A program made the position numbers and the translations under genes. Below are positions 19,430 to 52,507 of a DNA stretch of 64,000 bases, one piece after another. Each line of letters opens with the position of its first letter. The first letter of the stretch is position 1. Source of the DNA: Bacillota bacterium (GTDB lineage: Bacteria; Sysuimicrobiota; Sysuimicrobiia; Sysuimicrobiales; Segetimicrobiaceae); the NCBI GenBank assembly GCA_021324975.1, contig JAJPIA010000063.1, positions 23,461-87,460 on the forward strand. The letters run 5' to 3'. The notes under the pieces are model-generated. The model was given only the letters and a program-made list of their open reading frames with translations. It did no database searches and was not told the origin of the DNA.

Positions 19430-19459
19430 CGATCCGCCCCCGCGCGATCCTCCGCCGGC

Positions 19460-34033: not shown

Positions 34034-34066
34034 GAAGTCCATCCCTCCGCGACACGTCCATGATAC

Positions 34067-37291: not shown

Positions 37292-38074
37292 TTATTCGAC
37301 ACGTGCGCCTGCTCTAGGCGCGGCTTGGAGAAACGCGCGACCGGCCCCCGTGAACAATCCCGTCGCTCCGACGGCGATGGCGCGAACGCCCTGTGCCACA
37401 AGAGCCGTCGCCGCCGCGGGCGTCCCAGCCACCGTCGCGACGACCTTGCCCGCCCCCGCGCTTTCTGCAATCGCCCGGCGCACGAGGTGATCGACCGAAG
37501 GGAGTGACGCATCATCCTTGCCCAATTGCGACAGAGCCAGATCCCCCGGGCCGATGAAGACCGCGCGGACGCCGGGCACCGCGAGGATGTCCGTCAGGTT
37601 CTCCACTGCTTCGGTATCCTCGATCATCGGAAGCGCCCAGACTCTCGTGTTGGCGGTCCGATAGTAGTCGAGAGGGGTTCCCGCGGTTCCATATCGTGCC
37701 GCCCGACTTGAACTCAACGCCCCTCGTGCCCCCTCGGGTGGGAACAAGCACGCCGCGATGGCGTTGCGCGCATCAGCGGACGTCCGAATGTGCGGGAAGA
37801 TCAGGCCCGTCGCGCCGGTATCGAGATACCGGTAGACGCCGCGCGTATCAGCGTACGGCACACGGATCCACGTGGCCATTCCCTCGCACGCCGCCGCGCG
37901 CACCAAGCCAACGCACTCCCGAATCCCGAGGGCGCCATGCTCAGCATCGACAAAAACGAAATCGAATCCGCAAGCGCCCGCCGCCTCCACAAGATCGGGA
38001 TCATCCCACCCCATGACGATGCCGTACGCGACCTGGTCTCGCTCCAAGCGGTCTCGCAACCGATTGGCGTCCAT
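37292..38074 (-). CDS. HpcH/HpaI-family pyruvate aldolase
   Basis: 260 residues. Family blocks are FVFVDAEHGALGI (metal Glu), RVPYADTRGVYRYLDTGATGLIFPHI and IEDTEAVENLTDILAVPGVRAVFIGPGDLALS. These class II, metal-dependent enzymes cleave 4-hydroxy-2-oxo acids to pyruvate and an aldehyde. ATG 38074 has GAGGAGG upstream and overlaps the gamma-glutamyltransferase stop by one base (TGATG). It is the last gene of the GntR-led operon, and a 200-nt gap to the cupin operon follows. Confidence 0.88.
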   Translation of the reverse strand: MDANRLRDRLERDQVAYGIVMGWDDPDLVEAAGACGFDFVFVDAEHGALGIRECVGLVRAAACEGMATWIRVPYADTRGVYRYLDTGATGLIFPHIRTSADARNAIAACLFPPEGARGALSSSRAARYGTAGTPLDYYRTANTRVWALPMIEDTEAVENLTDILAVPGVRAVFIGPGDLALSQLGKDDASLPSVDHLVRRAIAESAGAGKVVATVAGTPAAATALVAQGVRAIAVGATGLFTGAGRAFLQAAPRAGARVE

Positions 38075-39702
38075 CACGCCTCCTCGTGCTGCTTGTGTTC
38101 TCGACGCCATAAGCCGATGCCCTTGCCTCCCCGCGGATCTGATGCCGCCGCCACTCCTGCGGAGGTCACGGTGACTGCTTGGTTACATCCCATGTAGCCG
38201 GTCACTTCGATCTCGTAGCCGCGACGGCGAAGGGCGTCCGCGACCGCCCCGGAAAGCGCCGGCTCGACGTAAATCTTGCGCCCAGACTCGCTGTGAATCC
38301 GGGGGGCCGCCACGGCGTCCTGCGGCGACATGCCGAACACGACGATGTTCAGCAGCGTCTGGAAGACCGAGCTAATAAGGCGGCTCCCGCCCGACGACCC
38401 TATCGCCATCCACGGCGCGCCGCCCCTGTAGACGATGGTTGGGCTGCCGCCACCCATGCGTTTCCGAGGCGCGATCGAATTGTGATAACCACGGAGCGGG
38501 TTGAAGTGGCCAAGAAAATTGTTGTAGAGGAAGCCGAGCCCAGGGGTCATTACCCCGGCCCCCGCGATCGAGCCGATGGAGTGCGTGATGCTCACGATAT
38601 CGCCACTGTCGTCGCAGACCGAAACATGTGTGGTATGCCCGTCCGTTGGAGTAGGACCGGCGTGCCCGGTTTCAAACGCGAACTCCTGTCGGGCGGCCCT
38701 GACTCGATGCTTTGAAGCGAGCCACTGCACCGGAACGGTCACAAACGCGGGATCTGAAAGGTACGGCATGCAATCGCCAAACGCGGTCCGTGTCGCCCAG
38801 GCCACCGCCTCAACGTAGTCCGGTCCGTTCCAGGCCAATCCGGCAAGGTCGACCGCCTCAATCAAGTTCATCATCGTTAGGAGAACGACGCCATGGCCGG
38901 GCGGAGGGCTGGAGTACAGCGTGAGATCGCGGAAGTTCCCTTGCACCGGGTCAACGGTCTGCACGTCGTAGGTCGCGAGATCCTCCCGCGTCACAAACGC
39001 TTCGTGCGCCGCGAAGTCCGCGGCCATGCTGGCTGCCACTTCGCCTTGGTAAAATTCGTCCGGCCCGCCCCGCGCCAGCCGCTCGAGCGTTCGGCCGTAC
39101 TCGGGTTGACGCAGGCGCTCCCCCACACGCATGACGCGCCCGCCGGGGAGGTATCGCTCTCGTGCGGCCGCATCCGTGCTCAACTTTCGAAACACGTCGG
39201 GGTAGCCCGGTCGGTCCAAACCCTCGAATGTGTAGTACGTCTCAAGGTATGGGTAGACGGGAAATCCATCCGAAGCGATTCTTGCAGCAGGCTCCACTAA
39301 CGTCGACCAGCCAAGTCGCGCATCCCCATGGTGCAAGGCCGTCTCCATGCCGCGCACGAACCCGGGCGTCATGATCGACATGTAGCCTAGCTGGTTGCGG
39401 TCGCCCTCGACCAGGTAGCGCCCCGCACGCTCGCTGCGGCCCATGAAGGCCTCCTCGAAACAGCCGGGCGCTGCGCGCGAACCGACAGCGACCGACGCGT
39501 TGAAAAAGCGCGGCGCCGGCCATCCACGCTTGGTCATCATTATGTGCGCCATTCCGGCCAGGCCGCAGCCCAGCGGGTTGGTCACGCCCTGCACAAGCGC
39601 CGCGGCAACGGCGGCGTCCGCGGCCGTCCCGCCTCGAGCAAACATTCGCTCCCCGGTCTCCGCGGCGAGCGGTTCCGGACAAGCAATGGCTCCCGCGTTC
39701 AC
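38074..39702 (-). CDS. Gamma-glutamyltransferase family (Ntn-hydrolase), copy 1
   Basis: 542 residues. The self-cleavage and nucleophile Thr is in DGHTTHVSVCDDSGDIVSITHSIGS (about residue 350), with the small-subunit block GGGSPTIVYRGGAPWMAIGSSGG. The enzyme precursor would split into large and small subunits and remove a gamma-glutamyl group from an amine or amino acid. No signal peptide is visible, so it should act inside the cell after import, unlike classical periplasmic Ggt. GTG start with TAGGAG upstream, 10 nt after the DppC-like stop. Confidence 0.88.
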   Translation of the reverse strand: MNAGAIACPEPLAAETGERMFARGGTAADAAVAAALVQGVTNPLGCGLAGMAHIMMTKRGWPAPRFFNASVAVGSRAAPGCFEEAFMGRSERAGRYLVEGDRNQLGYMSIMTPGFVRGMETALHHGDARLGWSTLVEPAARIASDGFPVYPYLETYYTFEGLDRPGYPDVFRKLSTDAAARERYLPGGRVMRVGERLRQPEYGRTLERLARGGPDEFYQGEVAASMAADFAAHEAFVTREDLATYDVQTVDPVQGNFRDLTLYSSPPPGHGVVLLTMMNLIEAVDLAGLAWNGPDYVEAVAWATRTAFGDCMPYLSDPAFVTVPVQWLASKHRVRAARQEFAFETGHAGPTPTDGHTTHVSVCDDSGDIVSITHSIGSIAGAGVMTPGLGFLYNNFLGHFNPLRGYHNSIAPRKRMGGGSPTIVYRGGAPWMAIGSSGGSRLISSVFQTLLNIVVFGMSPQDAVAAPRIHSESGRKIYVEPALSGAVADALRRRGYEIEVTGYMGCNQAVTVTSAGVAAASDPRGGKGIGLWRREHKQHEEA

Positions 39703-39712
39703 GGTTTCGCTC

Positions 39713-40618
39713 CTACTCGAGCCTGAGGCTCGGATCTAGAATGTCGCGCAGCAGATCGCCCACGATGTTGATGCTGAGCAGGGTCGCTCCTAGCACGGCC
39801 CCTGGCCAGATCCCAATCCACCAGTCGGTTTGTAAGTAGCCGCGGGCAGTTTCCAGCATACTGCCCCACTCCGGGGTCGGGGGTTGCGCGCCGAGGCCGA
39901 GGAAGCTCAGGGAGGCGCCAATGAGAATCGCGGTACCATAACCGAGAGATCCCAGGACAAACACGACATGGCGAACGTTGGGCACAACGTGCCGCCATAT
40001 CACGCGGGCCCCTGTAGCGCCCAATCCCTGCGCCGCCTCGACATACTGACTGGTCTTCACTCCGAGTGTCGCGCCGCGGACCACGCGGCTGAAGGCCGGC
40101 GCCTGGCCGATGCCGACCGCGATCATCGCATTCGTCAGCCCGGGCCCGAGCAACGTCACCACAATCAGCGCCAGCAATATGCCGGGAAACGCCAAGAGGA
40201 TGTCCACGCCGCGCATGACGACGTTATCGACCCGACCGCCATAGAACCCCGCCGTGACGCCGATACTGGTCCCCAGGATGCTACCGATCGCCGTCGCCAG
40301 GAGGGCGTAGCTGAGTGACGTGCGCGCGCCGAACACAACTCTCGTCAGAATATCGCGCCCAAACTCGTCGGTCCCAAAGGGGTGGGCAATGCTTGGGGCG
40401 CCCAACACCGCCACCGGATCCATCTGATTGGGATCGGACCGAGTTAGTGCGCTCGGTGCGATGGCGACCAGGACCACAACGACGAGGAACCCCGCGGCGC
40501 CGATGCTGGCCGGACTGGCACGGCGATACGCACGTCGGATCCACCGCGCGGGTGGCCACCGTTCCCCCCGTGTCGGATGCATCGCCACCGTCGCGGACAA
40601 AGGGGGCATGAAAGTCAT
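39713..40618 (-). CDS. Peptide-type ABC importer permease (DppC-like), system 2
   Basis: 301 residues with FGTDEFGRDILTRVVFGARTSL, GVDILLAFPGILLALIVV, the coupling loop TSQYVEAAQGLGATGARVIWRHVVPN and the closing GDLLRDILDPSLRLE of the OppC/DppC family. ATG 40618 overlaps the DppB stop (ATGA), which makes it preferable to the in-frame start at 40645. Confidence 0.9.
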   Translation of the reverse strand: MTFMPPLSATVAMHPTRGERWPPARWIRRAYRRASPASIGAAGFLVVVVLVAIAPSALTRSDPNQMDPVAVLGAPSIAHPFGTDEFGRDILTRVVFGARTSLSYALLATAIGSILGTSIGVTAGFYGGRVDNVVMRGVDILLAFPGILLALIVVTLLGPGLTNAMIAVGIGQAPAFSRVVRGATLGVKTSQYVEAAQGLGATGARVIWRHVVPNVRHVVFVLGSLGYGTAILIGASLSFLGLGAQPPTPEWGSMLETARGYLQTDWWIGIWPGAVLGATLLSINIVGDLLRDILDPSLRLE

Positions 40619-41538
40619 CCGTAGTGAATCCGTGGATCCAGCCACGCGTACAGCAGGTCTGTTGATAGGTTCACCAGCGTGTAGATGAGAGCGATCACGA
40701 GCACCACACCCTGCACGACGGGGAAGTCGCGCTGCAAGATCCCATCGACGATCAACCGCCCCAACCCATCGCGCGCAAACACTGTTTCGGTGATGATGGC
40801 GCCGCTCAGCAGAGCGCCAAACTGAACGGTCGCGAGCGTCACGGCCGGTAGGAGGGCATTGCGCAACGCATGGCGCAGTACCACGACGCTCTCACGCAGG
40901 CCCTTCGCACGCGCCACACCCACGTACTCCTTGTGCAGGACCTCAAGCATGGCGCTTCGCAAAAGACGCGCGATGGCTCCAGCCGGGAACCAGCCGAGCG
41001 TGAGGGCCGGCAGCACCAATGCGCGCAGACTCCCCTGGCCAGTTGCGGGAAACCATCCAAGGTGCACGGCGAACAATACGATGAAGAGAATCCCCGTCCA
41101 AAACGACGGCAGTGAGATGCCGAAGACGGCGAATGCGGTTGCGAACGCGTCTGCCCACCCGCCGCGATAAACGGCGGCAATAACTCCCGCCGGCGCGCCT
41201 ACGAGCACGCCAAACAGCATGGCGGCAATCGCGAGCGAGATGGTCGATGGTAACGCTCGGCGCAAATAGTCGCTGACCGGACGGCCGGATCGTAACGATC
41301 GACCCAAGTTGCCGCGGACGAACCGCCCAGCGTCCCCGGCGAGTTGCACGACCAACGGGCGGTCGAGCCCAAGGCTGTGGCGAATCGCCTGCAATTGCGC
41401 CGCGGAAACCGGGGCGTCTCCAACCATGAGCTGGGCGGGGTCGCCAGGGACCATGTGGATCATCAGTGACACGAGCACGAGCACCCCACACGCCACCACG
41501 GCACTGTGCCCAAGTCGGTATACGATGAACGACCCCAC
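40615..41538 (-). CDS. Peptide-type ABC importer permease (DppB-like), system 2
   Basis: 307 residues. MVPGDPAQLMVGDAPVS, six hydrophobic segments, the coupling loop HKEYVGVARAKGLRESVVVLRHALRNALLP and the terminal DPRIHYG mark it as DppB-like. It is translated just after the binding protein (33 nt gap) and overlaps the DppC-like gene. Confidence 0.92.
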   Translation of the reverse strand: MGSFIVYRLGHSAVVACGVLVLVSLMIHMVPGDPAQLMVGDAPVSAAQLQAIRHSLGLDRPLVVQLAGDAGRFVRGNLGRSLRSGRPVSDYLRRALPSTISLAIAAMLFGVLVGAPAGVIAAVYRGGWADAFATAFAVFGISLPSFWTGILFIVLFAVHLGWFPATGQGSLRALVLPALTLGWFPAGAIARLLRSAMLEVLHKEYVGVARAKGLRESVVVLRHALRNALLPAVTLATVQFGALLSGAIITETVFARDGLGRLIVDGILQRDFPVVQGVVLVIALIYTLVNLSTDLLYAWLDPRIHYG

Positions 41539-41571
41539 GACCGGCAGGCTCCCTCTAGCGCCCCCGGGCCG

Positions 41572-43164
41572 CTACGGCTCGAGCGACGTATCGTACAGCC
41601 ATGGGAAGAATCCGGTGGCGTCGAAGCCGAGTCCCTGGACCTTGGCTGACTCCAGCGAAACATTATCGCGCGTCGTAATGGGGAGCATGTAGGCCTTTTC
41701 CATCGCGTACCGCTGCGCCTGCGCGTAGATCTGCTTGCGCTTCTCGAGGTTCACTGCAGTGGCGCCGGCATCAAAGAGCTTGTCGAGCTCCGGGTCCTTG
41801 ACAAATGAGAAGTTGAACCCCCCATTTCCGACGTTCCGAGAGTGAAGGAACGCCGATAGAACGTCCGGGTCGGTCCGCGCGCCGGGCAGCGGGGACAGAT
41901 TGGACTCCCCCTTGCGCTGGTCTTCGTTCACCGTCAGGCCGTCGTAAATCCCGACTTTCACGTCCATCCCGACACTCCGCAGCTCCGCCTGGACGAGCTC
42001 TGGAATGCCGTGCTCCCAGGCGTTGAACACAACGACGAGCGGCTGGCCGTCCTTCCGTCGGATACCATCGGGACCGGGCTTCCATCCTGCCGCGTCGAGC
42101 AGTGCCCGAGCCTTCGCTGGGTCGTAGTGATAGATCCCAGACTCCTTATCGTAGCCCCAGGTCACCGGGCTCAGCAGGGTGAAAGCGGGCCGGTACGCTC
42201 CGTACGCCTGGAACGGGCCGTAGACGACGCGTGCAATGAGATCCCGATTGATTCCGTATTCCGTTGCCTGGCGCACGGCGAGCTGGTCGGTCGGAGCCTT
42301 CGTCACGTTGATTGCCCACGAATACGGAGAACCCGGGGAGAGACCGATGATAGGCTTGAACCGCGCGTCGTGCGCGAGTCGCTGAAGGTCCTGCGCGGAT
42401 ACCGCTGTCGTTACCTGCACTTCCCCGGTCTCCAGAGCGTTGACCCGGGTCGATGGATCGGGAATGATCCGGAACACGACGCGGTCGAGGTAGGCGGGGC
42501 CCTGGTGCTTGAAAAGCGGTGAGGCCCACGCGTAGTCCGGGTTTCGCTCGAGGACGACGCGATCATTGGGGGTCCATTGCACGAAGCGGAACGGCCCGGA
42601 GCCGACGGGATGTTGGCCAAAGTCCTGGTCACCGGCCTTGCGCACGCCGGCCGGGGAGACCATCCGATAGAAGAGGCTTGCCGCATCAAGAAACGGGGCC
42701 CACGGAGCCTTGAGGCGGATGGTGACCGTTGAGGCGTTTACGGCATCCGCTGATTCATAGAAACCCATCGCGCAGCCACCACAGCGCGTGCCGAGCGCGG
42801 GATTGTGCGTCCGGTCGAAGTTGAACTTCACAGCGGCGGCGTCGAGCGGTGTTCCGTCCTGAAACCTGACGCCCGGGTGCAGGTGGAAGGTGTATACTTT
42901 CCCGTCCGGCGAGACCGACCAGGACGCCGCCAGCCAAGGCTTGATCGTGTTATCCTTCGGGTCCCGTACCACCAACGGGTCGAAAATCTGGAAGAAAACG
43001 ATCTGTGCGGGCCGTAGGCCGGACAAATTAGGGTCGAGCCGATCCGGACTACCGTCGAGTGAGTAGACTAACGTCCCGCCGCGATGCGGCGCCACCGCAG
43101 TGAACCCGGTCTGCGGAAGACTTACAATCGCCGCTAACAGAAGAACAAACGGCATTCGCCTCAT
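41572..43164 (-). CDS. Peptide-type ABC importer substrate-binding protein, system 2
   Basis: 530 residues of SBP family 5. Sec signal peptide MRRMPFVLLLAAIVSLPQTGF, then RLDPNLSGLRPAQIVFFQIF, YTFHLHPGVRFQDGTPLDAAAVKFNFDRTHN and a CGGC motif (TRCGGCAMGFY) near residue 125. It is a close paralogue of the binding protein at 46130, which shares the CGGC. ATG 43164 has AGGGGG upstream. The gene follows the GntR regulator and opens the transporter part of the operon. Confidence 0.9.
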   Translation of the reverse strand: MRRMPFVLLLAAIVSLPQTGFTAVAPHRGGTLVYSLDGSPDRLDPNLSGLRPAQIVFFQIFDPLVVRDPKDNTIKPWLAASWSVSPDGKVYTFHLHPGVRFQDGTPLDAAAVKFNFDRTHNPALGTRCGGCAMGFYESADAVNASTVTIRLKAPWAPFLDAASLFYRMVSPAGVRKAGDQDFGQHPVGSGPFRFVQWTPNDRVVLERNPDYAWASPLFKHQGPAYLDRVVFRIIPDPSTRVNALETGEVQVTTAVSAQDLQRLAHDARFKPIIGLSPGSPYSWAINVTKAPTDQLAVRQATEYGINRDLIARVVYGPFQAYGAYRPAFTLLSPVTWGYDKESGIYHYDPAKARALLDAAGWKPGPDGIRRKDGQPLVVVFNAWEHGIPELVQAELRSVGMDVKVGIYDGLTVNEDQRKGESNLSPLPGARTDPDVLSAFLHSRNVGNGGFNFSFVKDPELDKLFDAGATAVNLEKRKQIYAQAQRYAMEKAYMLPITTRDNVSLESAKVQGLGFDATGFFPWLYDTSLEP

Positions 43165-43205
43165 CGTCGCCCCCTTCTCGCACCGGTCACGATGGTGCGG
43201 CGCTT

Positions 43206-43928
43206 TCAAACAGTGCCAGACATGCTCGCCGTCGCATTCGAGTCGTCGCCGCGCTCCTGGAATTGAGCAAGGACATCCGCGCGTCCGCGCCGGATATGGC
43301 GTGTCATCAAATCCTCGGCCAGATCCGCGTCTTTGGCATCGATGGCATCGAGGATCGCGCGGTGCTGTTCGATCGCCACGCGTTGCCGGCCTTCCCCACG
43401 GATACTTCGGTATGCAAGCCGCCGGATGTCTACACTGATCAATTCGTACATCCTCCGCAGGCGCCCGTTACCGGCACCCTGAAGCACCAGCCCGTGGAAT
43501 TGCCGGTTGTAGTCCACAGAGTATTCGATCGGGACCCCCCCGGCGGCGAATCGCTGTTCGGCGCTCGTTTGGATACTTGCCAGCGCGTCAATCGACACCT
43601 CATCATGCCGTTCCGCGGCGCGCCGGGCTGCCAGGCGCTCGAGATACTCGCGTAAGTCATAGAATTCCACAACGTCGGCTCGCTGCAGTCTCCGCACTTC
43701 CGGGGTGCGGTGGGCGTCGGCGACCAGGAATCCTTCCGCTTGCAATCGTCGCAATGCCTCGCGAATCGGGGTCTTACTGACGCCGAGCTGCTCCACCAGG
43801 GTGTCTTCCTGGATTTTCGCTCCCTCTGCGATTTGGTTCGTGGCAATTGCTTCGATGAGACGAGCGTACACTTGGTCTCCGAGGCGACGAGGTGATACCG
43901 GTTCAAGCAACGTCCGCGGATCATTCAT
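43206..43928 (-). CDS. GntR-family (FCD/FadR-type) transcriptional regulator
   Basis: 240 residues. N-terminal winged helix (LGDQVYARLIEAIATNQIAEGAKIQEDTLVEQLGVSKTPIREALRRLQAEGFL) and a C-terminal all-helical FCD ligand domain with DVVEFYDLREYLERLAARRAA, a His/Asp-type metal site near NRQFHGLVLQ and HRAILDAIDAKDADLAEDLM. FCD regulators bind organic acids and are usually repressors. ATG 43928 starts the conserved part. A TTG at 43964 is an alternative. It heads the minus-strand operon and faces the creatininase operon across an AT-rich operator region. Confidence 0.9.
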   Translation of the reverse strand: MNDPRTLLEPVSPRRLGDQVYARLIEAIATNQIAEGAKIQEDTLVEQLGVSKTPIREALRRLQAEGFLVADAHRTPEVRRLQRADVVEFYDLREYLERLAARRAAERHDEVSIDALASIQTSAEQRFAAGGVPIEYSVDYNRQFHGLVLQGAGNGRLRRMYELISVDIRRLAYRSIRGEGRQRVAIEQHRAILDAIDAKDADLAEDLMTRHIRRGRADVLAQFQERGDDSNATASMSGTV

Positions 43929-44019
43929 GCGCGTCAGTCTCCCGGGAGATTCGCTTGATAGCAAATTCGCATCGGTTAGTCCGCAGAAATATGCTTCACG
44001 GCGAAAAGAATAATATATC

Positions 44020-44048
44020 TTGATAAATAATATTATTCATCTTATATT
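44020..44048 (+). promoter_or_regulatory. Promoter of the creatininase-RraA-Dpp operon
   Basis: TTGATA (44020-44025), 17-bp spacer, TATATT (44043-44048). Predicted start near 44055, 40 nt before the ATG with its GGGAGGG. A palindrome (44022-44041) fills the spacer. Confidence 0.65.
44022..44041. promoter_or_regulatory. 20-bp near-perfect palindrome, candidate GntR operator
   Basis: GAT-A-AATAAT / ATTATT-C-ATC: symmetrical except one base pair. It sits between the -35 and -10 boxes of the plus-strand operon and about 95-115 nt upstream of the GntR gene. A bound dimer would block the plus-strand promoter, and TATTAT/TATATT boxes for the minus direction (44010-44017) adjoin it. Confidence 0.65.
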
Positions 44049-44094
44049 TCTAATATCATAAACTCCGTACGCTCACAAGCCCTGGGAGGGTTCA

Positions 44095-44904
44095 ATGCAT
44101 CTCGGTGAGGTCAGCTGGACGGCCGCGCAAACTGCCATCGCCGACCAAAGATCCGCGATTCTGCCGCTTGGTTCGATCGAGGAACACGGCCCGCATGCAC
44201 CGATGGGAGACTATATGATCATCGATGCCATCGCGCGGCGTACCGCGGAAGCCACGGGTGACATCGTCGTCCCCACAATACCGTTCGGTTACTCCGAATA
44301 CTTTCGTCACTACGCCGGCACGATTACGCTTCGCCCCGAAACACTCGATGCGGTGGTAAGCGACACGATCGACTGTCTCGTGCGCCACCGATTGCGCCGT
44401 ATCGTCATCTTCAACGGGCATGCCGGAAATGGCCCGATATTGGAGCCGTTGACGCGGCGCGTCCGTCGGCAGATTGGTCTGCTTATTCCAACCGTGTCGC
44501 CGCTTCAGGTGATCCAAAATCCTGCGCTGATCAAGCAAGTGTACGGAGACAACGTTCAACTCGGCCACGGCGGCGAGCCGGTGGGGTCGCTCATGATGGC
44601 GCTGCGATCCGAATTGGTCCATCTTGACCGGGCCGGGGCATTTGGGCGCAAACAGATTCTCGGAATGCCCAGCGATGGTCTCGGCGCAATTCTGTTCCGC
44701 AACGTACGCGTGGCCCTGCCTCTAGATATGCGGGATGTCACGCCCGAGACAGGAAGCTTGAGCGATCCATCGCTGGCCAGCGCGGAACGCGGCGAGACAT
44801 TGATCAAATACGCGGTCGAATTCTGCGCGGAGTTCATGCGCTGGTTCCGTACTGTGGACCCCTGGGTGGAACCTGACGCCGTGACTCCTCTTAAAGGAGG
44901 GTAG
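44095..44904 (+). CDS. Creatininase-family amidohydrolase
   Basis: 269 residues. The metal-binding blocks of the family are clear: LPLGSIEEHGPHAPMGDY, IFNGHAGNGP and GHGGEPVGS. Members hydrolyse cyclic or formyl amides (creatinine, FAPy deformylase ArfB, MftE). Sequence alone does not say which. It is the first gene of a seven-gene operon with RraA-like, CMD-like, peptide-binding protein, isochorismatase-family amidase and two permeases, so it probably acts on the imported compound. Confidence 0.9.
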   Translation: MHLGEVSWTAAQTAIADQRSAILPLGSIEEHGPHAPMGDYMIIDAIARRTAEATGDIVVPTIPFGYSEYFRHYAGTITLRPETLDAVVSDTIDCLVRHRLRRIVIFNGHAGNGPILEPLTRRVRRQIGLLIPTVSPLQVIQNPALIKQVYGDNVQLGHGGEPVGSLMMALRSELVHLDRAGAFGRKQILGMPSDGLGAILFRNVRVALPLDMRDVTPETGSLSDPSLASAERGETLIKYAVEFCAEFMRWFRTVDPWVEPDAVTPLKGG

Positions 44905-44910
44905 ACCACG

Positions 44911-45621
44911 TTGGAAGCCGCAAGCCAAAGATCGGTCATTGAGTACCTCGGGTTTCGAGGCATTCGGGCGATTCCACGCCCGTCGCCAGACCTCGTTCGC
45001 CAGCTCGCGGAGTATGCTCCCCCCGATCTCTCCGACGCGATGAACGGTGCCCACACGCTGGATCCACGCATCCGGCCGCTCTACTCTCTGCGGCGACGCA
45101 TCGCCGGCCCGGCCGTCACGGTTGCCGTTCCGCGCGCTGCCTTCAACATCATCAAGTTCGGCATGCAGCAGACGCGGCGCGGCGATGTCATGGTCATCAA
45201 CGCCTGGGGGATCTCGACCTTCGCGGCTTGGGGCGGCAACGTAAGCAAGGGGATGCAGCGCCGCGGCGTGGCCGCCGTTGTCATCGATGGGGCGGCGCGC
45301 GATCCCGAAGAAGCAGAAGCAGTCGACTTCCCTGTGTTCGCCCGCGCGCAAGCCACGGCAACTCCACCCCTCGATGGCCCCGGCGAGGTCAATGTCCCAA
45401 TCGCTTGCGGCGGCGTCGTGGTAAATCCGGGCGACATCGTGGTGGCCGATGCCAACGGCATTGTGGCCATCCCCCCAGCGGCGGCGGCGTGGGTTTTGCG
45501 TCAGGTGGCGGACCTGAAACAGCGCCACGCGAAGCTCCAACCCGTGCTGGAACGCGGCGACGTGACGGGGATTGATGCCATCGTCGACTCACTCGGCAAG
45601 CAAGGGTTCGCAATTGATTAG
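44911..45621 (+). CDS. RraA-like / HMG-CHA pyruvate aldolase family protein
   Basis: 236 residues. PPDLSDAMNGAHTLDPRIRPL, RRGDVMVINAWG and GVAAVVIDGAARDPEEAE, with the Arg-Asp pair used for metal and substrate binding, define the family of RraA and 4-hydroxy-4-methyl-2-oxoglutarate/4-carboxy-4-hydroxy-2-oxoadipate aldolases. The enzymes cleave to pyruvate. The catalytic residues are kept, so an aldolase fits better than the RNase-E inhibitor role. TTG start with AAAGGAGGG 9 nt upstream. CTCCT just before could pair with the AGGAG. Confidence 0.85.
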   Translation: MEAASQRSVIEYLGFRGIRAIPRPSPDLVRQLAEYAPPDLSDAMNGAHTLDPRIRPLYSLRRRIAGPAVTVAVPRAAFNIIKFGMQQTRRGDVMVINAWGISTFAAWGGNVSKGMQRRGVAAVVIDGAARDPEEAEAVDFPVFARAQATATPPLDGPGEVNVPIACGGVVVNPGDIVVADANGIVAIPPAAAAWVLRQVADLKQRHAKLQPVLERGDVTGIDAIVDSLGKQGFAID

Positions 45622-45667
45622 GGTGGACCACGCTGGACTGCCCATCTGACTGCTCCGGAGGTGGGTG

Positions 45668-46051
45668 ATGGCTGATTCCGTCTTGCGGGAGCGCGGGCTG
45701 GCGATCCGCAAGCAACTCTGGCCGGACCGAGAGGGCGGCATTGCTCATTTTCGCGCACTCGATCCCGCTTTCGCCGACTTCATCCTGGAGCACGGGTACG
45801 GCGCGATCTACGGAGATCCTACGCTCGATCTCCGCACTCGTAGTCTGCTGACGTGCGCAGCCCTCGCTGTCTTAGGAAGAACGCACGGCCTCGAGTCGCA
45901 CCTCCGCGGCGCCCTGAACATCGGCATCACGGCACAAGAGTTAATCGCGATGTTGAAACAGATGGGATTGTACGCCGGTTTCGCCACAATCAACGACGCA
46001 TTCAGAATCCTCAAGGTTGTGCTTGACGAACGAAACACCCCGAGCGCGTGA
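45668..46051 (+). CDS. Carboxymuconolactone decarboxylase (CMD)-like protein
   Basis: 127 residues, all helical. LDLRTRSLLTCAALAVLGRTHGLESHLRGALNIGITAQELIAMLKQMGLYAGFATINDAF is the CMD core. It lacks the C-x-x-C of AhpD peroxidase partners, so a lactone decarboxylase or isomerase role is more likely. ATG 45668 follows GGAGGTGG. The GTG one codon earlier is an alternative. Confidence 0.85.
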   Translation: MADSVLRERGLAIRKQLWPDREGGIAHFRALDPAFADFILEHGYGAIYGDPTLDLRTRSLLTCAALAVLGRTHGLESHLRGALNIGITAQELIAMLKQMGLYAGFATINDAFRILKVVLDERNTPSA

Positions 46052-46129
46052 AGCCGATCTGTGTCGCCCGGACGATCGGCGGAATCGACGTCCGTCGCGT
46101 GCGGCCGTCGATGGGAGGAGGGAACAGCG

Positions 46130-47731
46130 ATGTGCAGGGCATGGGTGCTGTGTGGGATGCTATTGTTGGCGCTGTCGGTATCCTTTACCGCTGCTACCGC
46201 AGCTTCACACGAGGGAGGTACCCTCGTTTATGCGCTCCGCGATGAGCCCGATCGCCTGGATCCGAACCTGTCGGGACTTCGGCCTTCCCAGATCGTCTTC
46301 TTCCAGATCTTCGACCCGCTCATCGTTCGAGACAAGCGAGACCAGAGCTTCAAACCTTGGCTTGCTACCTCGTGGAGTGTGTCAGCTGACGGCAAGGTCT
46401 ATACGTTTATGCTGCGGTCCGGCGTGACGTTCCAAGACGGTACTCCCTTCGATGCCGCCGCCGTCAGGTTCAACTTCGACCGCACCCATAACCCGAAGCT
46501 TGCAAGTCGGTGCGGAGGATGCGCCGTGGGCTTTTACGATCATGCCGTCGTCGTCAATCCCCACACCGTGAAAATCTACCTCAAACGACCATGGGCGCCC
46601 TTCCTCGACGCGGTCAGCCTCTACTACCGAATGGTGTCTCCAGCGGCCGTGCAGCGGTACGGCGATCAGGACTTCGGCCGCCATCCGGTCGGCACGGGCC
46701 CGCTTCGGTTCGTCGAGTGGATTCCCAACGACCACATAACGCTCGAGCGCTATCCCGCGTACAGCTGGGCAGCGCCGATCTTGCATCACACGGGGCCGGC
46801 ATACTTGGATCGCGTGATCTTCCGCATGCTGCCCGAAGACGGCACCCGGGTAGCCGCATTGGAGAATGGCGAGGCGCAGGTCATTGACAACGCGCCCGCG
46901 CAGGATTTCGACCGCCTCACTAAGGACCCTCGCTACAAGGCACTGATCGGGTTCGTCCCTGGGATTCCGTTCGATTTCGCCATCAATGTCACCATGCCCC
47001 CGACGAACGAGCTCGCGGTGCGACAGGCAATGAGCTACGGGCTCGATCGGCCGACTATCGTCAAGACGGTGTTTGGGCCGTTCGAGAAGGTCGGCGCGTT
47101 TCTGCCTGCTTATGGCCTGCTTACGCCCTATACCTACGGCTACGACAAAACCGCAGGCCTGTATCACTACGATCCGGCCAAAGCACGCGCGCTGCTCGAC
47201 CACGCCGGCTGGAAAGTCGGACCCGACGGCATTAGACAGAAGAACGGACGACGTCTCACTATTCCACTGGGGTCCTGGGAACACGGGGTGCCTGAAGTCA
47301 TGCAGGCGCAACTCAAGCAGATCGGCATCGATCTCAAGCTCTTTATCGCCACGGGCACCGCCATTCAAACGGTAAATGAGAACCAGCGAAAGGGCGTCAC
47401 ACTGTTGTCGCCGCTGCCGGCTCCTCGGAGCGATCCGGATATCATCAGTGCCTTTCTCCATTCCCGGAACGTCGGCGGAGGGGGGTTCAACTTCTCCTTT
47501 GTGAAAGATCCGGCGCTGGACCGGCTCCTGGACGCCGAGGCAGTCGAAGTCGATAGCGCCAAACGTGTGCAGATTCTTTCCAGGGTTCAGCACATGGTGA
47601 TGGAAAAGGCCTACATGCTCGCCGTCTACGATTGGGACAATATTTCGCTCAAGTCCGCGACGGTGAATGACCTAGAGTTCGATAACATCGGGTTCTTCCC
47701 ATGGCTTCACGATGCCTGGCTCGCGCATTAG
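46130..47731 (+). CDS. Peptide-type ABC importer substrate-binding protein, system 3
   Basis: 533 residues with a Sec signal (MCRAWVLCGMLLLALSVSFT). The mature part follows its paralogue at 41572 closely: RLDPNLSGLRPSQIVFFQIF, SRCGGCAVGFY, VSLYYRMVSPAAVQRYGDQDFGRHPVGTGP and FFPWLHDAWLAH. They differ in charged residues of the pocket region. ATG 46130 has GGGAGGAGGG upstream. It belongs to the same operon as the hydrolases and as DppBC-like system 3. Confidence 0.9.
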   Translation: MCRAWVLCGMLLLALSVSFTAATAASHEGGTLVYALRDEPDRLDPNLSGLRPSQIVFFQIFDPLIVRDKRDQSFKPWLATSWSVSADGKVYTFMLRSGVTFQDGTPFDAAAVRFNFDRTHNPKLASRCGGCAVGFYDHAVVVNPHTVKIYLKRPWAPFLDAVSLYYRMVSPAAVQRYGDQDFGRHPVGTGPLRFVEWIPNDHITLERYPAYSWAAPILHHTGPAYLDRVIFRMLPEDGTRVAALENGEAQVIDNAPAQDFDRLTKDPRYKALIGFVPGIPFDFAINVTMPPTNELAVRQAMSYGLDRPTIVKTVFGPFEKVGAFLPAYGLLTPYTYGYDKTAGLYHYDPAKARALLDHAGWKVGPDGIRQKNGRRLTIPLGSWEHGVPEVMQAQLKQIGIDLKLFIATGTAIQTVNENQRKGVTLLSPLPAPRSDPDIISAFLHSRNVGGGGFNFSFVKDPALDRLLDAEAVEVDSAKRVQILSRVQHMVMEKAYMLAVYDWDNISLKSATVNDLEFDNIGFFPWLHDAWLAH

Positions 47732-47743
47732 GAGGGCCCGTCG

Positions 47744-48493
47744 ATGGCGTCCGCGCCAGAAACACTCCACAAAGGCTTAGCCGCGGATTGGCGGCAGCGC
47801 CTCCAGGAATGGCCGCTTCCGCTCCCGCGGTTTCCGCTGGATCTACGGAAATCGGCCCTGCTCATCATCGATATGCAGTATGGCTCTGCCGATCCTGAGC
47901 ATGGCGTGGGGCCGTATCTGCGGACGCACCGGCCCGCAATCGCCGAATATTATTATGGTCGTGTACGGAATAGTGTGGTTCCGAACATTCAGCGGTTACA
48001 AGCATTGTTCAGACGTTCAGCGCGGCCCGTGATTTACCTCACGATAGGGTTCACAAGGGCGGATCGAGGCGATGGCCTACCGTTACTTCGCCAAATTGAC
48101 GACGATCTGGCAGCGCTGACCGCCGGCGGCCCACTGGTTAGACACGGAAGCCGGGCGAACACTGTCATTGAGCCCATAGCCCCCATCGACGGCGAGACAG
48201 TGATCAACAAGACCTCGATGGGGGCATTCAATTCAACGGCAATCGACCAAATGCTGCGGAATATGGATATCACGACCGTGATAACAACGGGGGTGTCGAC
48301 CGAATGCTGCGTGGCGACGACAGCGCGAGACGCTGCCGATCGCGGCTATCATGTGCTCCTCGTAGAAGACGCGTGCACGGCCGTGACGCCCTACCTCCAG
48401 GAGAGTAGTCTCGTTACTTTCGCCGCGATGTTCGGCCGGGTGGCCGCCACAGACGCGACGATCCGGGAACTTGGCTTGGACACGGGCCGATGA
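47744..48493 (+). CDS. Isochorismatase-family amidohydrolase
   Basis: 249 residues. The Asp-Lys-Cys triad is visible: ALLIIDMQYGSAD, INKTSMGAFNSTAID and TGVSTECCVATTARDAADRGY. This family includes N-carbamoylsarcosine amidase, maleamate amidase, ureidoacrylate amidase and nicotinamidase. The combination with a creatininase-family enzyme recalls creatinine breakdown, but maleamate-like amides are equally possible. It starts 12 nt after the binding-protein stop. Confidence 0.88.
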   Translation: MASAPETLHKGLAADWRQRLQEWPLPLPRFPLDLRKSALLIIDMQYGSADPEHGVGPYLRTHRPAIAEYYYGRVRNSVVPNIQRLQALFRRSARPVIYLTIGFTRADRGDGLPLLRQIDDDLAALTAGGPLVRHGSRANTVIEPIAPIDGETVINKTSMGAFNSTAIDQMLRNMDITTVITTGVSTECCVATTARDAADRGYHVLLVEDACTAVTPYLQESSLVTFAAMFGRVAATDATIRELGLDTGR

Positions 48494-48504
48494 CGCAGTG
48501 ACCG

Positions 48505-49428
48505 ATGCTTCGGTTCGCGCTACACCGGGTCTTACAGTCGGTCCTTGTTGTATTCGGAGTCTTGGTCATCGTGTTCCTCATGGTGCACCTTGTCCCGGGC
48601 GATCCCGCCCAGGTATTGTTCGGCGACGCCCCGGTCCCGAAAGCGCAGGTGGAAGAAGTACGGCATGCGCTCGGCCTCGATCAACCACTGGCGGTGCAGC
48701 TCGCTCGGTATCTCCGCCGCGTGCTGACTGGCGATTTGGGGAGATCGCTTAAGACGGACCGACCGGTAGCGACCGACCTCGCGCGGGCGATTCCCTCCAC
48801 CACAGAACTCGCCGTTGCCGCTATGGCCCTGGCGGCAGCGGGCGGTGTCTTCTTTGGCATTGTGTCAGCGTCGTCACACAACACCTGGTTGGACAGCGGC
48901 GTTTCGACGGTCGCGCTGTTGGGTATTTCATTTCCAACGTTTTGGACGGGCTTGCTGCTAATCTGGCTCTTTAGCGTCAAACTCGACTGGTTCCCGATTA
49001 CCGGCCAGTATTCGCTTCGTAACTTAGTGCTGCCGGCGATCACCCTCGGCTGGTATGCGGGTGCGATCCTTGCGCGACTGGTCCGCAGCGGGATGCTGGA
49101 AGTCCTCCGCCAGGAGTACATTCGAACTGCGTGGGCCAAGGGTGTCACAAGGCGTCGAATACTCGCGTGGCATGCCCTGCGCAACGCGTTGATCCCGGTC
49201 ATCACCGTGGCGAGCGTCCAATTTGGAACACTGCTCGGCGGCGCCGTCGTAGTGGAAACAGTCTTCGCGAGGGACGGCGTAGGTCGGATGCTTGTCCTCG
49301 CCATCTTGCAAAAGGACTTCCCGGAAGTCCAAGGCGCGGTCCTGGTCCTCGCGCTTGCATACACTTTTAGCAATTTGCTGGCTGATCTGTGCTACGGTAG
49401 CATCGACCCTCGCGTCCGCTACGGGTAG
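48505..49428 (+). CDS. Peptide-type ABC importer permease (DppB-like), system 3
   Basis: 307 residues. HLVPGDPAQVLFGDAPVPKAQVEEVRHALGLDQPLAVQ, six hydrophobic segments, loop RQEYIRTAWAKGVTRRRILAWHALRNALIPV and the end DPRVRYG. Separated by 11 nt from the amidase and 5 nt from the DppC-like gene. Confidence 0.92.
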   Translation: MLRFALHRVLQSVLVVFGVLVIVFLMVHLVPGDPAQVLFGDAPVPKAQVEEVRHALGLDQPLAVQLARYLRRVLTGDLGRSLKTDRPVATDLARAIPSTTELAVAAMALAAAGGVFFGIVSASSHNTWLDSGVSTVALLGISFPTFWTGLLLIWLFSVKLDWFPITGQYSLRNLVLPAITLGWYAGAILARLVRSGMLEVLRQEYIRTAWAKGVTRRRILAWHALRNALIPVITVASVQFGTLLGGAVVVETVFARDGVGRMLVLAILQKDFPEVQGAVLVLALAYTFSNLLADLCYGSIDPRVRYG

Positions 49429-49433
49429 CGCAC

Positions 49434-50306
49434 ATGGCGGTCGTCCTTTCAGGAATGCAACTGCAACGCAGACGGTGGTCGCGCGTATTGCCTTTCCTTC
49501 GCCGTCTCAGTCCGGCTGCCAAGTTGGGGCTAGTGGTCATGGTGCTCTTCCTCATCCCGTTGATCGCGCCAAATTGGATCGCGCCGTACGATCCCACGGC
49601 GGTGATGCCGACCGAAATCTTTCAACCGCCATCCGCCCACCATTGGTTAGGTACCGATCAGTTCGGGCGAGACATCCTGAGTCGACTCATCTATGGCGCC
49701 CGCAATTCGCTGACTCTCGGCATCGTGTCCGTCTCCATATCGGTGCTGATCAGCGTCCCCGTGGGACTCGCCGCGGGGTACTATCGTGGCCCACTCGATG
49801 CCGTTACGATGCGTGCCGTGGACATCGTGATGGCGTTTCCTGGCATTCTGCTCGCGCTGGTGATCATCGCGATCCTTGGACCCGGCTTGACAAACGCCAT
49901 GATCGCAGTGGGCATCGGGGAAGCTCCAGCTTACACACGTGTGGTTCGCGGATCGACTCTCGTGGTCCGCGAGCACTCGTACATCGAAGCGGCGCGCGCG
50001 GCCGGAACGGGCGATTTCCGCATCATGAGAGATCACGTATTCCCGAATGTGATTCAGCCGTTGATTGTGATCTCTACCGTCGGGTTTGCAGTCGCGATCG
50101 TAATCGGGTCGTCGCTTGGTTTTCTAGGTCTCGGGGCACAGCCACCGGCCGCCGAGTGGGGCACGATGGTTAGCGACGGGCGCAATTATCTGCGAACAGA
50201 GTGGTGGATTTCCGCATTCCCCGGCGCAACGATTGGTGTCGTCGTGCTTACTCTCAACGTTCTTGGCGACGCCTTACGCGATATTCTCGACCCGCGGCTA
50301 AGGTAG
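49434..50306 (+). CDS. Peptide-type ABC importer permease (DppC-like), system 3
   Basis: 290 residues with LGTDQFGRDILSRLIYGARNSLTLG, AVDIVMAFPGILLALVIIAILGPGLTNAMIAVG, coupling loop EHSYIEAARAAGTGDFRIMRDHVFPN and final GDALRDILDPRLR. Last gene of the creatininase operon. It ends 34 nt from the 3' end of tRNA-Thr. No DppD or DppF ATPase gene follows. Confidence 0.92.
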   Translation: MAVVLSGMQLQRRRWSRVLPFLRRLSPAAKLGLVVMVLFLIPLIAPNWIAPYDPTAVMPTEIFQPPSAHHWLGTDQFGRDILSRLIYGARNSLTLGIVSVSISVLISVPVGLAAGYYRGPLDAVTMRAVDIVMAFPGILLALVIIAILGPGLTNAMIAVGIGEAPAYTRVVRGSTLVVREHSYIEAARAAGTGDFRIMRDHVFPNVIQPLIVISTVGFAVAIVIGSSLGFLGLGAQPPAAEWGTMVSDGRNYLRTEWWISAFPGATIGVVVLTLNVLGDALRDILDPRLR

Positions 50307-50339
50307 TTAAGCTCGGGCAGCGGGCTTGCAACGCTCTGG

Positions 50340-50411
50340 AGCCGGCGAGCGGATTTGAACCGCTGACCTGCGCATTACGAGTGCGCTGCTCTGCCGCTGA
50401 GCTACGCCGGC
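50340..50411 (-). tRNA. tRNA-Thr (anticodon CGT)
   Basis: Full cloverleaf on the minus strand: acceptor GCCGGCG/CGCCGGC, D-stem GCTC/GAGC, anticodon stem GCGCA/TGCGC around CTCGTAA (anticodon CGT), T-stem AGCGG/CCGCT around TTCAAAT, discriminator T. CCA is encoded at 50339-50337. Reads ACG threonine codons. Its 3' end points towards the lower-GC region on the left. Confidence 0.95.
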
Positions 50412-50785: not shown

Positions 50786-52507
50786 CTACCAGCCCATCGC
50801 GTACCCGTTGCGCCGCGGATCGGCGCCGCCCCGCAACCAGCCGTCCTCGCCGACGACGATGCCTTGGGCGCCGCCGACGCGGACCGACCAGTCCTCGAGC
50901 ACCTCGAGCTGGTATCCCCGGGACGCGAGCGTCCGGCGCACGTCGGACGCAAACCGGCCTTCGAGCAGCAACGTCTCGGGCGGCAGCGGATCGCCGACGT
51001 CGTCCTTCCACCGGAAGCGCGGCGCGGCGATCGCGTCCTGAATATTGCGGCCGTAGTCGATGAGGCCCACGATCACCTGCGCGGTCGTCTGCGGGATACT
51101 GTAGGACCCCGGCGTCCCGATCAGGAACGCGATGCGGCCGCCGCGCGCGGCGTGGGCCGGCCCGAGGGGATCGATGCCGAAGGAGTGCGTGGGTGCAACC
51201 GGCGCGCCGTCCAACGAGAACCCGTGGACGGGCGACGACGGCGACTCGCGGCGCTTGTCGGGCGCGATGACCTTCGCGTCGCCCGGAATGAGCGTACACC
51301 AGTGGTGGCCGTTGTTCATCGTGATCCCGGTGTCGCCGATCACGACCCCGGAACCGTAGCCGCTGCCGATCGTCTGGGTGATGTTGACGGCAAGACCGCT
51401 CGCATCCGCCGCCGCGAGATGCGTGGTGGAGCGCTCCGGAGCCTTCCGCGCGCGCCGCACCGGTGTCCGCCGTTGCGAGGCGCGGCTGCGGGCGGCGTCG
51501 AGCCGCCGGTGCACCTCTGCGCGCAATTCCTCGATCCGCTCGTCCGACAGCATCCACCCGATCGGCACGTCGACAAACGCGGGATCCGCGACGTGAGCGG
51601 CGGCGTCCATGCGCGCCAGCCGGATGGCCTCGGCCGTAGCCGCCAGGTTGTCCGCCCCGAGCGCATCCCCGTCGGTGAGCGCGAACGCCTCGAGGATACG
51701 CAGCGTCTGCAGCACCTGCACGGCGCTGCTCGGCGGAGGTGTGGTGCGAATCTGATAGCCGCGATACGAGGCGACGATCGGATCCTCCCAGCGAATGCTG
51801 TCGGGGTAGGACCGCAAATCCTCGGCCGTGATGAGGCCGCCGTGCTCGCCAAAGTACCCCGCGATCGTCTCCCCGACGCGCCCGTGGTAGAAACTCAGCC
51901 AGCCGTCCGACGCGAGGGTGCGCAGGGTCGCGGCCAGCCCGGGCTGTCGGAGCACCTCGCCCGGCTCGTAGGGCCGCCCGTCCTTGAGAAAGGTGCGCGC
52001 CGCGTCCGGCCGCGGGGTGAGCCGGTCCACGGTTTGCGACGTGCGCACGTGGTCGAAGTAGGTCACAGGCGTCCCCCGCTCGGCAAGCTCGATCGCCGGC
52101 TCGAGCACCTGCGCCAGCGGGAGCCGTCCGTACTCCCCGTGGAGGCGCCCCCAGCCCGCGACATTCCCGGGCACCATCGGCGCGAGGATCCCGAGGTCTT
52201 GCGTCCGCTCGTTGAACAGATCGGGGCGCGCCCCGCGCGGGCTCCGCCCCATGAAGTTGAGCGTCCGCGTCTCCCCGCTCGGGAGCGACAGCACCGCGAT
52301 GCCGATCCCGCCGGTGGAAGAAAAATACGGCTCGACCACGGTGACCGCCGCAGCCGTCGCGATCGCCGCGTCCACCGCGTTGCCGCCTGCGGCGAACATC
52401 CGGAGGCCGGCCTGCGTGGCGAGGGGATTGGCCGAAGCGACCATGCCGCGGCGCCCCATCGCCACAGGTCGAGGCCCAAACTCAGATGCGCCGCCGGCGT
52501 ACGTCAC
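50786..52507 (-). CDS. ggt: Gamma-glutamyltransferase family (Ntn-hydrolase), copy 2
   Basis: 573 residues. The nucleophile Thr lies in ERSTTHLAAADASGLAVNITQTIGSGYGSG, and the precursor should self-cleave there. It has MGRRGMVASANPLATQAGLRMFAAGGNAVDAAIATAAA at the start, but the segment that normally reads GGGxP..G.D.G..SS is changed to FGIDPLGPAHAARGGRIAFLIGTPG, so it may belong to a non-glutathione branch such as acylases. No signal peptide. GTG start with GGGGG upstream. It is only distantly related to copy 1 at 38074. Confidence 0.85.
   Translation of the reverse strand: MTYAGGASEFGPRPVAMGRRGMVASANPLATQAGLRMFAAGGNAVDAAIATAAAVTVVEPYFSSTGGIGIAVLSLPSGETRTLNFMGRSPRGARPDLFNERTQDLGILAPMVPGNVAGWGRLHGEYGRLPLAQVLEPAIELAERGTPVTYFDHVRTSQTVDRLTPRPDAARTFLKDGRPYEPGEVLRQPGLAATLRTLASDGWLSFYHGRVGETIAGYFGEHGGLITAEDLRSYPDSIRWEDPIVASYRGYQIRTTPPPSSAVQVLQTLRILEAFALTDGDALGADNLAATAEAIRLARMDAAAHVADPAFVDVPIGWMLSDERIEELRAEVHRRLDAARSRASQRRTPVRRARKAPERSTTHLAAADASGLAVNITQTIGSGYGSGVVIGDTGITMNNGHHWCTLIPGDAKVIAPDKRRESPSSPVHGFSLDGAPVAPTHSFGIDPLGPAHAARGGRIAFLIGTPGSYSIPQTTAQVIVGLIDYGRNIQDAIAAPRFRWKDDVGDPLPPETLLLEGRFASDVRRTLASRGYQLEVLEDWSVRVGGAQGIVVGEDGWLRGGADPRRNGYAMGW

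Follow-up and report, generated by a model that had tools for sequence, protein, structure and literature searches.

The stretch of DNA analysed here (the window, 64,000 nucleotides; G000:C68:23461-87460, from genome G000, an assembly of 4.43 Mb in 144 contigs) comes from a Bacillota bacterium of the family Segetimicrobiaceae, phylum Sysuimicrobiota. Between positions 37292 and 50306 it carries 13 genes in two divergent operons (Table 1), which together probably form a conserved, undescribed variant of amide catabolism fed by Dpp-type importers. On sequence evidence, we propose with moderate confidence that this two-armed cluster, which contains a GntR regulator, imports an amide compound and hydrolyses it in the cytoplasm, and that an RraA-like protein (RraA) and an HpcH/HpaI-family protein (HpaI) cleave the product to a pyruvate-like acid. 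More tentatively, the cluster may represent an undescribed pathway with a core of RraA and a cytoplasmic, non-glutamyl amidase of the gamma-glutamyltransferase (GGT) fold, whose importers run on about six shared Dpp ATPase pairs for some ninety permease sets, in a family that would feed mainly by such importers. A preliminary description made from the letters of this DNA knew of no named pathway with this gene set, and a literature search for the combination likewise found no description; the excerpts of PMC6784897 and PMC5103831 contain nothing on this cluster. The gene families and order that it gave for both arms were borne out for all 13 genes by Pfam searches of the window proteins, each gene scoring above its own Pfam cut-off, and the two binding proteins (SBP1 and SBP2) that it called paralogues are 61% identical.

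Conservation of the cluster was followed through 43 genomes of the phylum, six of which, the window's own included, hold a close relative of the GGT-fold protein (GGT1), the five others at 56-82% identity. GGT1, RraA (orthologues at 70-83%, no more than 8 kb from GGT1) and an importer are found together at all six loci. Creatininase-type and isochorismatase-type orthologues occur at four of the six, HpaI at two (the other one in G008, 71%) and the CMD-family protein also at two (the other one in G002). This nested gene content points to GGT1 and RraA as the core reaction pair. The congener G002 has the whole divergon minus HpaI, at 76-92% identity. G008, of the same family, has all but CMD, and there a GntR-HpaI strand faces a long run of creatininase-RraA-SBP2-isochorismatase-DppB2-DppC2-SBP1-DppB1-DppC1-GGT1. 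In G036, which belongs to another family, GntR faces a single operon, SBP2-isochorismatase-DppB2-DppC2-GGT1-creatininase-RraA, with DppB2 in two overlapping pieces and no SBP1-DppB1-DppC1 set in the stretch read. The arms co-occur in other genomes, and enzymes of both share a single operon in G036, which supports the earlier suggestion of a joint unit that takes up and degrades a compound.

The remaining two loci consist of SBP1-DppB1-DppC1-GGT1 facing RraA in G007 and of the same four-gene unit with RraA in G009. Both genomes have distant HpaI paralogues (27-28%) about 1.2 kb from GGT1 and creatininase-type relatives (60-61%) on other contigs. About 21 kb beyond its unit, G009 also carries a second GGT relative (53%, with one in-frame stop) beside SBP2 and an isochorismatase-type gene (68%, about 25 kb from the GGT1 unit), together with other RraA and creatininase paralogues; at 68% identity or more, the isochorismatase-type protein is present in five of the 43 genomes. 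Linkage was also counted in 12 genomes of the family, using 114 of 116 creatininase, 51 of 56 RraA and 73 of 90 GGT rows (second pieces and short fragments omitted); the expected values presuppose that genes are placed at random, the genomes are relatives of one another, and the split of RraA by score was made post hoc. Of the 51 RraA, 12 had a GGT homologue within 10 kb (1.7 expected) and 9 had a creatininase homologue within that distance (2.8 expected), and for the 21 best-scoring RraA the counts were 11 (0.8 expected) and 9 (1.2 expected). GGT lay within 10 kb of creatininase in 8 of 73 cases (3.7 expected).

The residues of GGT1 bear most directly on the substrate. In E. coli GGT, the carboxyl group of L-glutamate is contacted by R114, S462 and S463 and its amino group by N411, Q430 and D433, as given in an excerpt of PMC6769717. 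When aligned to this enzyme, all six GGT1 orthologues have every one of these residues replaced (R114 by S, N411 by G, Q430 by F, D433 by H, and S462 and S463 by G), while the nucleophilic Thr (E. coli position 391) and the oxyanion Gly-Gly pair (483/484) are retained. The GGT of B. licheniformis, placed as a control in the identical alignment, keeps the R, the D and both S residues, with Glu at 411 and 430. GGT1 therefore shares with the E. coli enzyme its family, catalytic Thr and oxyanion pair, but differs in its glutamate contacts, in overall sequence (29% identity) and in its predicted cytoplasmic location, which fits the lack of a signal-length extension before the domain. Its score against the NCBIfam model TIGR00066, 291.7 bits, is below the cut-off of 357.85. 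Because the glutamate-binding residues of the known enzyme are replaced, GGT1 is likely to be a GGT-fold protein that acts on something other than gamma-glutamyl compounds. Of the "cytoplasmic gamma-glutamyltransferase" proposed earlier, the fold stands and the location is plausible, but the activity in its name is not supported, and the gamma-glutamyl-linked substrate that went with it was rejected on the six residues. GGT-fold enzymes are known to have been recruited for other amides; among amidases of this fold we compared the cephalosporin acylase 2nlz and 5hft, which we take to be the HpxW oxamate amidohydrolase. R114 and D433 are also absent from the other GGT-family members tested in G000, namely a second gene in the window (GGT2) and four further full-length relatives, making six of six with GGT1; one further, split GGT fragment of the genome lay outside this test. 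No counterpart of GGT2 at 53% identity or more was found in the stretches read from five related loci.

RraA carries the motif G-X20-R-D-X2-E (G109-X20-R130-D131-X2-E134), a form of G-X20-R-D-X2-E/D, which we take to be the second aldolase motif of its family. Most RraA relatives bear one of two such motifs, and Arg-123 is essential, according to the part of PMC5065237 consulted. One family member is a dehydratase/decarboxylase (excerpt of PMC8563752), so the exact reaction of RraA is not fixed by its family, and its best NCBIfam model scores 156 bits against a cut-off of 231. In sequence and in motif the protein matches the HMG/CHA aldolase (3noj) and the RraA-like type of 1j3l (presumably the T. 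thermophilus RraA-like protein), but in contrast to the HMG/CHA aldolase, its cluster has no aromatic-cleavage genes. HpaI, when aligned to YfaU, retains the His and Arg that we assume to be catalytic and the Glu and Asp that we assume to bind the metal. It reaches 136 bits with the equivalog model TIGR02311 (cut-off 369), and so no substrate is assigned. Both proteins retain class II aldolase residues, from which aldolase function is predicted. The end of the pathway in pyruvate, as first suggested, agrees with these catalytic residues, while the route leading there is one that we infer. The lactone step that had been ascribed to CMD lost its footing, as no CMD orthologue is present at four of the six loci and the protein scores 70.9 bits against the PcaC model TIGR02425 (cut-off 155.7); the protocatechuate pathway was set aside on the same score.

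The two hydrolases of the plus arm resemble, and depart from, well-described enzymes. The creatininase-type protein shares with creatininase the fold and the positions E29, H31, D39 and H109, presumably the ligand positions of that enzyme, and its structure model (pLDDT 67, moderate confidence) matches creatininase structures with E ~1e-14. It differs in having Gly111 for creatininase E122 (NGHAGN for NGHYEN) and HGGEPVGS for HGGVFETS, and scores 101 bits against TIGR04448, which has a cut-off of 235. Of 19 rows in the creatininase-type alignment, 15 show the HG[GA][ED]P form, the exceptions being L137, L138, L139 and a distant paralogue in L021. The isochorismatase-like protein belongs with BiuH and TrtA in family and in its Asp-Lys-Cys triad (D43, K156 and C189, invariant in all five proteins aligned). 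Unlike them, it has Met229 at the position of TrtA Q202, the specificity Gln of biuret and triuret hydrolases (PMC7948467, excerpt), it scores 90.6 bits with the BiuH model (cut-off 370), and its cluster includes no AtzF-type gene. The paralogous isochorismatase loci examined gave no hint of a substrate. In a congener (L140, 7780-10364, G001:C91), a paralogous creatininase and isochorismatase stand some 1.1 kb from each other, which makes this pairing of families more than a single occurrence.

Creatinine and nicotinate degradation both employ an isochorismatase-like amidase, and these and a third route were compared with the cluster. The creatinine pathway was rejected on the TIGR04448 score, the replacement of E122 and the absence of its other enzymes from the 13 cluster genes, and the biuret/triuret pathway on the BiuH score, the Met at the Q202 position and the absence of an allophanate hydrolase from the cluster. 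Nicotinate degradation, too, has no stepwise fit among the 13 genes (the remaining genome was not searched), and neither of the pathways against which the preliminary description asked its proposal to be checked fits the cluster genes step by step. Its amide-opening hydrolases are present as families, but chemistry of the creatinine or biuret kind is not supported for them.

Each arm codes for a binding protein and two permeases, the parts of a Dpp-type ABC importer. No match to PF00005 (ABC ATPase) lies inside 37292-50306, and the nearest listed on the contig is at about 8.9-9.3 kb of the window. The genome as a whole holds 122 SBP_bac_5 matches (120 above cut-off, fragments included) and 90 DppB N-terminal matches, with 11 oligo_HPY matches above cut-off, corresponding to about six Dpp-type ATPase gene pairs, and at least 101 ABC ATPase domains (99 above cut-off, from 150 of 167 candidates scored). 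Private ATPase pairs for 90 permeases would require 180 domains, exceeding the roughly 100 found, and sharing of ATPases among the importers of G000 is therefore likely; the six pairs may be supplemented by ATPases that lack an oligo_HPY domain. In 11 other genomes of the family, 5-22 oligo_HPY matches stand against 36 to at least 77 SBP matches. This ratio of importers to ATPases suggests that energy modules are shared to an extent that, to our knowledge, has no precedent in the literature. The structure model of SBP2 (pLDDT 57) was too poor for use. A third SBP-DppB-DppC set lies elsewhere in the window (17612-21124), with an amidase-signature enzyme (24375-25796) 3.3 kb past it.

As first described, the two operons meet at an AT-rich region, where the window reaches its highest AT content over 100 bp (73% from position 43963, against a mean of 32% over the 64 kb) and where two sigma-70-like sites oppose each other (two observed, 0.6 expected in shuffles). 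At the place matching the plus-arm site, G002 has TTGTCA-17-TATATT, and the 22-bp candidate operator listed in Table 1 ends 34 bp upstream of the creatininase-type start in the window and 39 bp upstream of it in G002. Local alignment of the two divergent regions scores 29, against a maximum of 13 in 500 single-base shuffles, a similarity that is partly due to the kinship of the two genomes. G008 has only 9-base words in common with this region, possibly by chance. For GntR itself, translation from the ATG at 43928, which sits just before the domain, appears more likely than from the TTG at 43964. In G007 (L034, ~3400-3460, G007:C32), ATGTCAAATATC was seen by eye twice, as direct copies, with a 61% creatininase relative on one side and a 43% GntR relative on the other, and these copies are possibly the operator of that divergent pair.

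Taken together, we suggest the following scheme. An amide-containing small molecule would enter through the two Dpp-type importers, which would rely on a pool of ATPases whose genes lie outside the cluster. Its amide bonds would then be hydrolysed in the cytoplasm by GGT1, likely non-glutamyl, and by the isochorismatase-like and creatininase-type hydrolases, in an order that we infer, and RraA and HpaI would cleave or decarboxylate the product, by way of a putative keto acid, to pyruvate or a similar acid. GntR may exert control at 44039-44060, relieved by a compound of the pathway. GGT1, RraA and one importer would be the fixed core, the creatininase-type and isochorismatase-type proteins a second, often added module that frees further amide groups, and HpaI and CMD accessory. 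One guess is that the substrate is a small 2-oxo-acid amide, which would suit an amidase acting ahead of an oxaloacetate decarboxylase or aldolase.

A scan of 84,980 species genomes for the isochorismatase-type protein, made with two peptide patterns only and thus a weak test of absence elsewhere, gave 73 loci. Searches of these with the window proteins found the gene set in three, on contigs of G002, G036 and G008; in the other 70, no creatininase-type or RraA protein was present at E 1e-6. Distant matches among the 70 were SBP-DppB-DppC within 10 kb in L051 and L053, an SBP in L061, GGT in L068 and L105, and GntR in L052. Plasmid records with a match number 422 for the creatininase-type protein, 733 for GGT1 and 872 for the isochorismatase-like protein. 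RraA stood within 1.7 kb of the creatininase in six of the 12 examined among the creatininase matches listed and about 3 kb away in one, and was not found beside it in five; the two examined among the GGT1 matches listed had neither creatininase nor RraA. Alphaproteobacterial plasmid clusters have SBP-DppBC and creatininase-RraA families adjacent, together with a serine hydrolase and a divergent HpaI-family gene in Agrobacterium, Shinella and Qingshengfaniella and with GGT in Terrarubrum. They differ from the window cluster in having their own ATPases, in identity (24-43%) and in an RraA that lacks the essential Arg, and the first three also carry an N-formylglutamate amidohydrolase. In six of six such plasmids (L127-L130, L132 and L134), the RraA beside an HG[GA][ED]P creatininase has Thr or Ala for that Arg, and these RraA may not be aldolases at all. 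We therefore dropped these pairs as instances of the same system and do not count the clusters as members; in function they would match that of the window only partly at best.

Several observations weigh against our proposal. The cluster codes no ATPase for either importer, and as the genome has 122 SBP_bac_5 matches, an adjacent importer pair means less than it seems to. Conservation of the set was observed within one phylum only. In the 12 family genomes, the 30 lower-scoring RraA are unlinked to GGT (1 of 30) and to creatininase (0 of 30), and GGT within 5 kb of creatininase (3 of 73, 1.9 expected) is not clearly above chance. The six alphaproteobacterial RraA without the Arg also mean that a creatininase-RraA pairing alone is no proof of aldolase chemistry.

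Other explanations of the cluster fare unevenly against the same evidence. It is possible, if somewhat unlikely, that the arms are neighbours rather than one pathway and serve two separate routes for two related compounds under one shared regulator. Either arm supplies a binding protein and permeases for itself, and in G007 and G009 the SBP1-DppB1-DppC1-GGT1 set and RraA have no adjacent creatininase-type or isochorismatase-type orthologue; however, GGT1 is inside the plus-arm operon in G036, without SBP1-DppB1-DppC1 in the stretch read, and RraA, a plus-arm gene in the window, is near GGT1 in all six genomes. We consider it unlikely that a general Dpp importer, of which the genome would have about a hundred, here scavenges peptides or peptidoglycan fragments with the help of loosely related clean-up hydrolases. 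The abundance of SBP_bac_5 matches, the M19 dipeptidase-family gene and amidase elsewhere in the window, and the studies, cited in the portion of PMC11604079 consulted, on the expression of genes that assimilate peptides and amino acids would all suit such a role, but the conserved core contains no peptidase and the partner that recurs is a protein of the RraA aldolase type.

The closest solved structures by sequence are creatininase and the triuret and biuret hydrolases, as would be expected if a creatininase opened a cyclic ureide and an isochorismatase-like enzyme removed the carbamoyl nitrogen. Nitrogen scavenging of this kind is nonetheless improbable in view of the model scores (101 against 235 bits and 91 against 370), the changes of E122 to Gly and of HGGVFETS to HGGEPVGS, the Met at the Q202 position, and the absence from the cluster of any creatinase, hydantoinase or allophanate hydrolase; it would also leave two aldolases unexplained. 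The original idea of an imported gamma-glutamyl compound, opened by a true gamma-glutamyltransferase and led through a lactone to pyruvate, agrees with the family-level names (PF01019, PF02627, PF03737 and PF03328), yet we regard it as very improbable given the replacement of all six glutamate contacts in six of six GGT1 orthologues, a TIGR00066 score of 292 against 358 bits and a CMD orthologue missing from four of six loci. We thus keep to import of an amide compound, cytoplasmic hydrolysis and aldolase-type cleavage as our working account of the cluster.

Beyond the cluster, a tRNA-Thr gene (CGT; 50337-50411, minus strand) lies between DppC2 and GGT2, just 30 bp from the end of the former, and is a possible insertion point. 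The M19 membrane-dipeptidase family gene (32888-34042, minus strand), near the cluster, has relatives in two of the loci, L145 (G009) and L061, the latter on a contig whose title calls it archaeal. Past GGT2, 52746-56043 holds a lipid-kinase-like gene, a glycolipid-glycosyltransferase-like gene and then a long open frame resembling a membrane transporter; as far as seen, these are unrelated to the cluster.

Table 1. Genes and sequence elements of the divergent cluster, with one neighbouring gene, in window positions.
Feature	Position	Strand	Remarks
HpcH/HpaI-family class II aldolase (HpaI)	37292..38110	-	PF03328, 84 bits
GGT-fold Ntn hydrolase (GGT1), predicted non-glutamyl amidase	38074..39702	-	PF01019, 359 bits
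DppC-type permease 1	39713..40645	-	PF00528
DppB-type permease 1	40615..41538	-	PF00528, PF19300
SBP_bac_5 binding protein 1 (SBP1)	41572..43209	-	PF00496, 279 bits; start may be ATG at 43164, 45 bases inward
GntR/FCD regulator	43206..43964	-	PF00392, 53.5 bits; PF07729, 91.2 bits; orthologues in G002, G008, G036
Divergent promoter/operator region	43965..44094		64% AT
Sigma-70-like site, plus arm	44020..44048	+	TTGATA-17-TATATT
Sigma-70-like site, minus arm	44032..44059	-	9/12 matches; opposes plus-arm site
22-bp element, candidate operator	44039..44060		identical in congener G002; covers both promoter-like sites
Creatininase-family hydrolase, HGGEP subgroup	44095..44904	+	PF02633, 190 bits
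RraA-like protein (RraA), predicted class II pyruvate aldolase/oxaloacetate decarboxylase	44911..45621	+	PF03737, 136 bits
CMD-family protein, accessory	45665..46051	+	PF02627, 66 bits
SBP_bac_5 binding protein 2 (SBP2)	46061..47731	+	PF00496, 257 bits; later start at 46130 suits signal peptide
Isochorismatase-like cysteine hydrolase	47744..48493	+	PF00857, 118 bits; triad D43-K156-C189
DppB-type permease 2	48505..49428	+	PF00528, PF19300
DppC-type permease 2	49434..50306	+	PF00528
Second GGT-family gene (GGT2)	50786..52507	-	without R114 and D433; insertion in small-subunit part

In conclusion, genes of the GGT family are routinely named as glutathione enzymes, and for this conserved clade one residue after another contradicts that name. 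Segetimicrobiaceae is the most abundant family of its phylum in soils, according to the part of PMC11604079 consulted. GGT1, RraA and one binding protein make up a small, testable gene set for the diet of this abundant, hardly cultured group.

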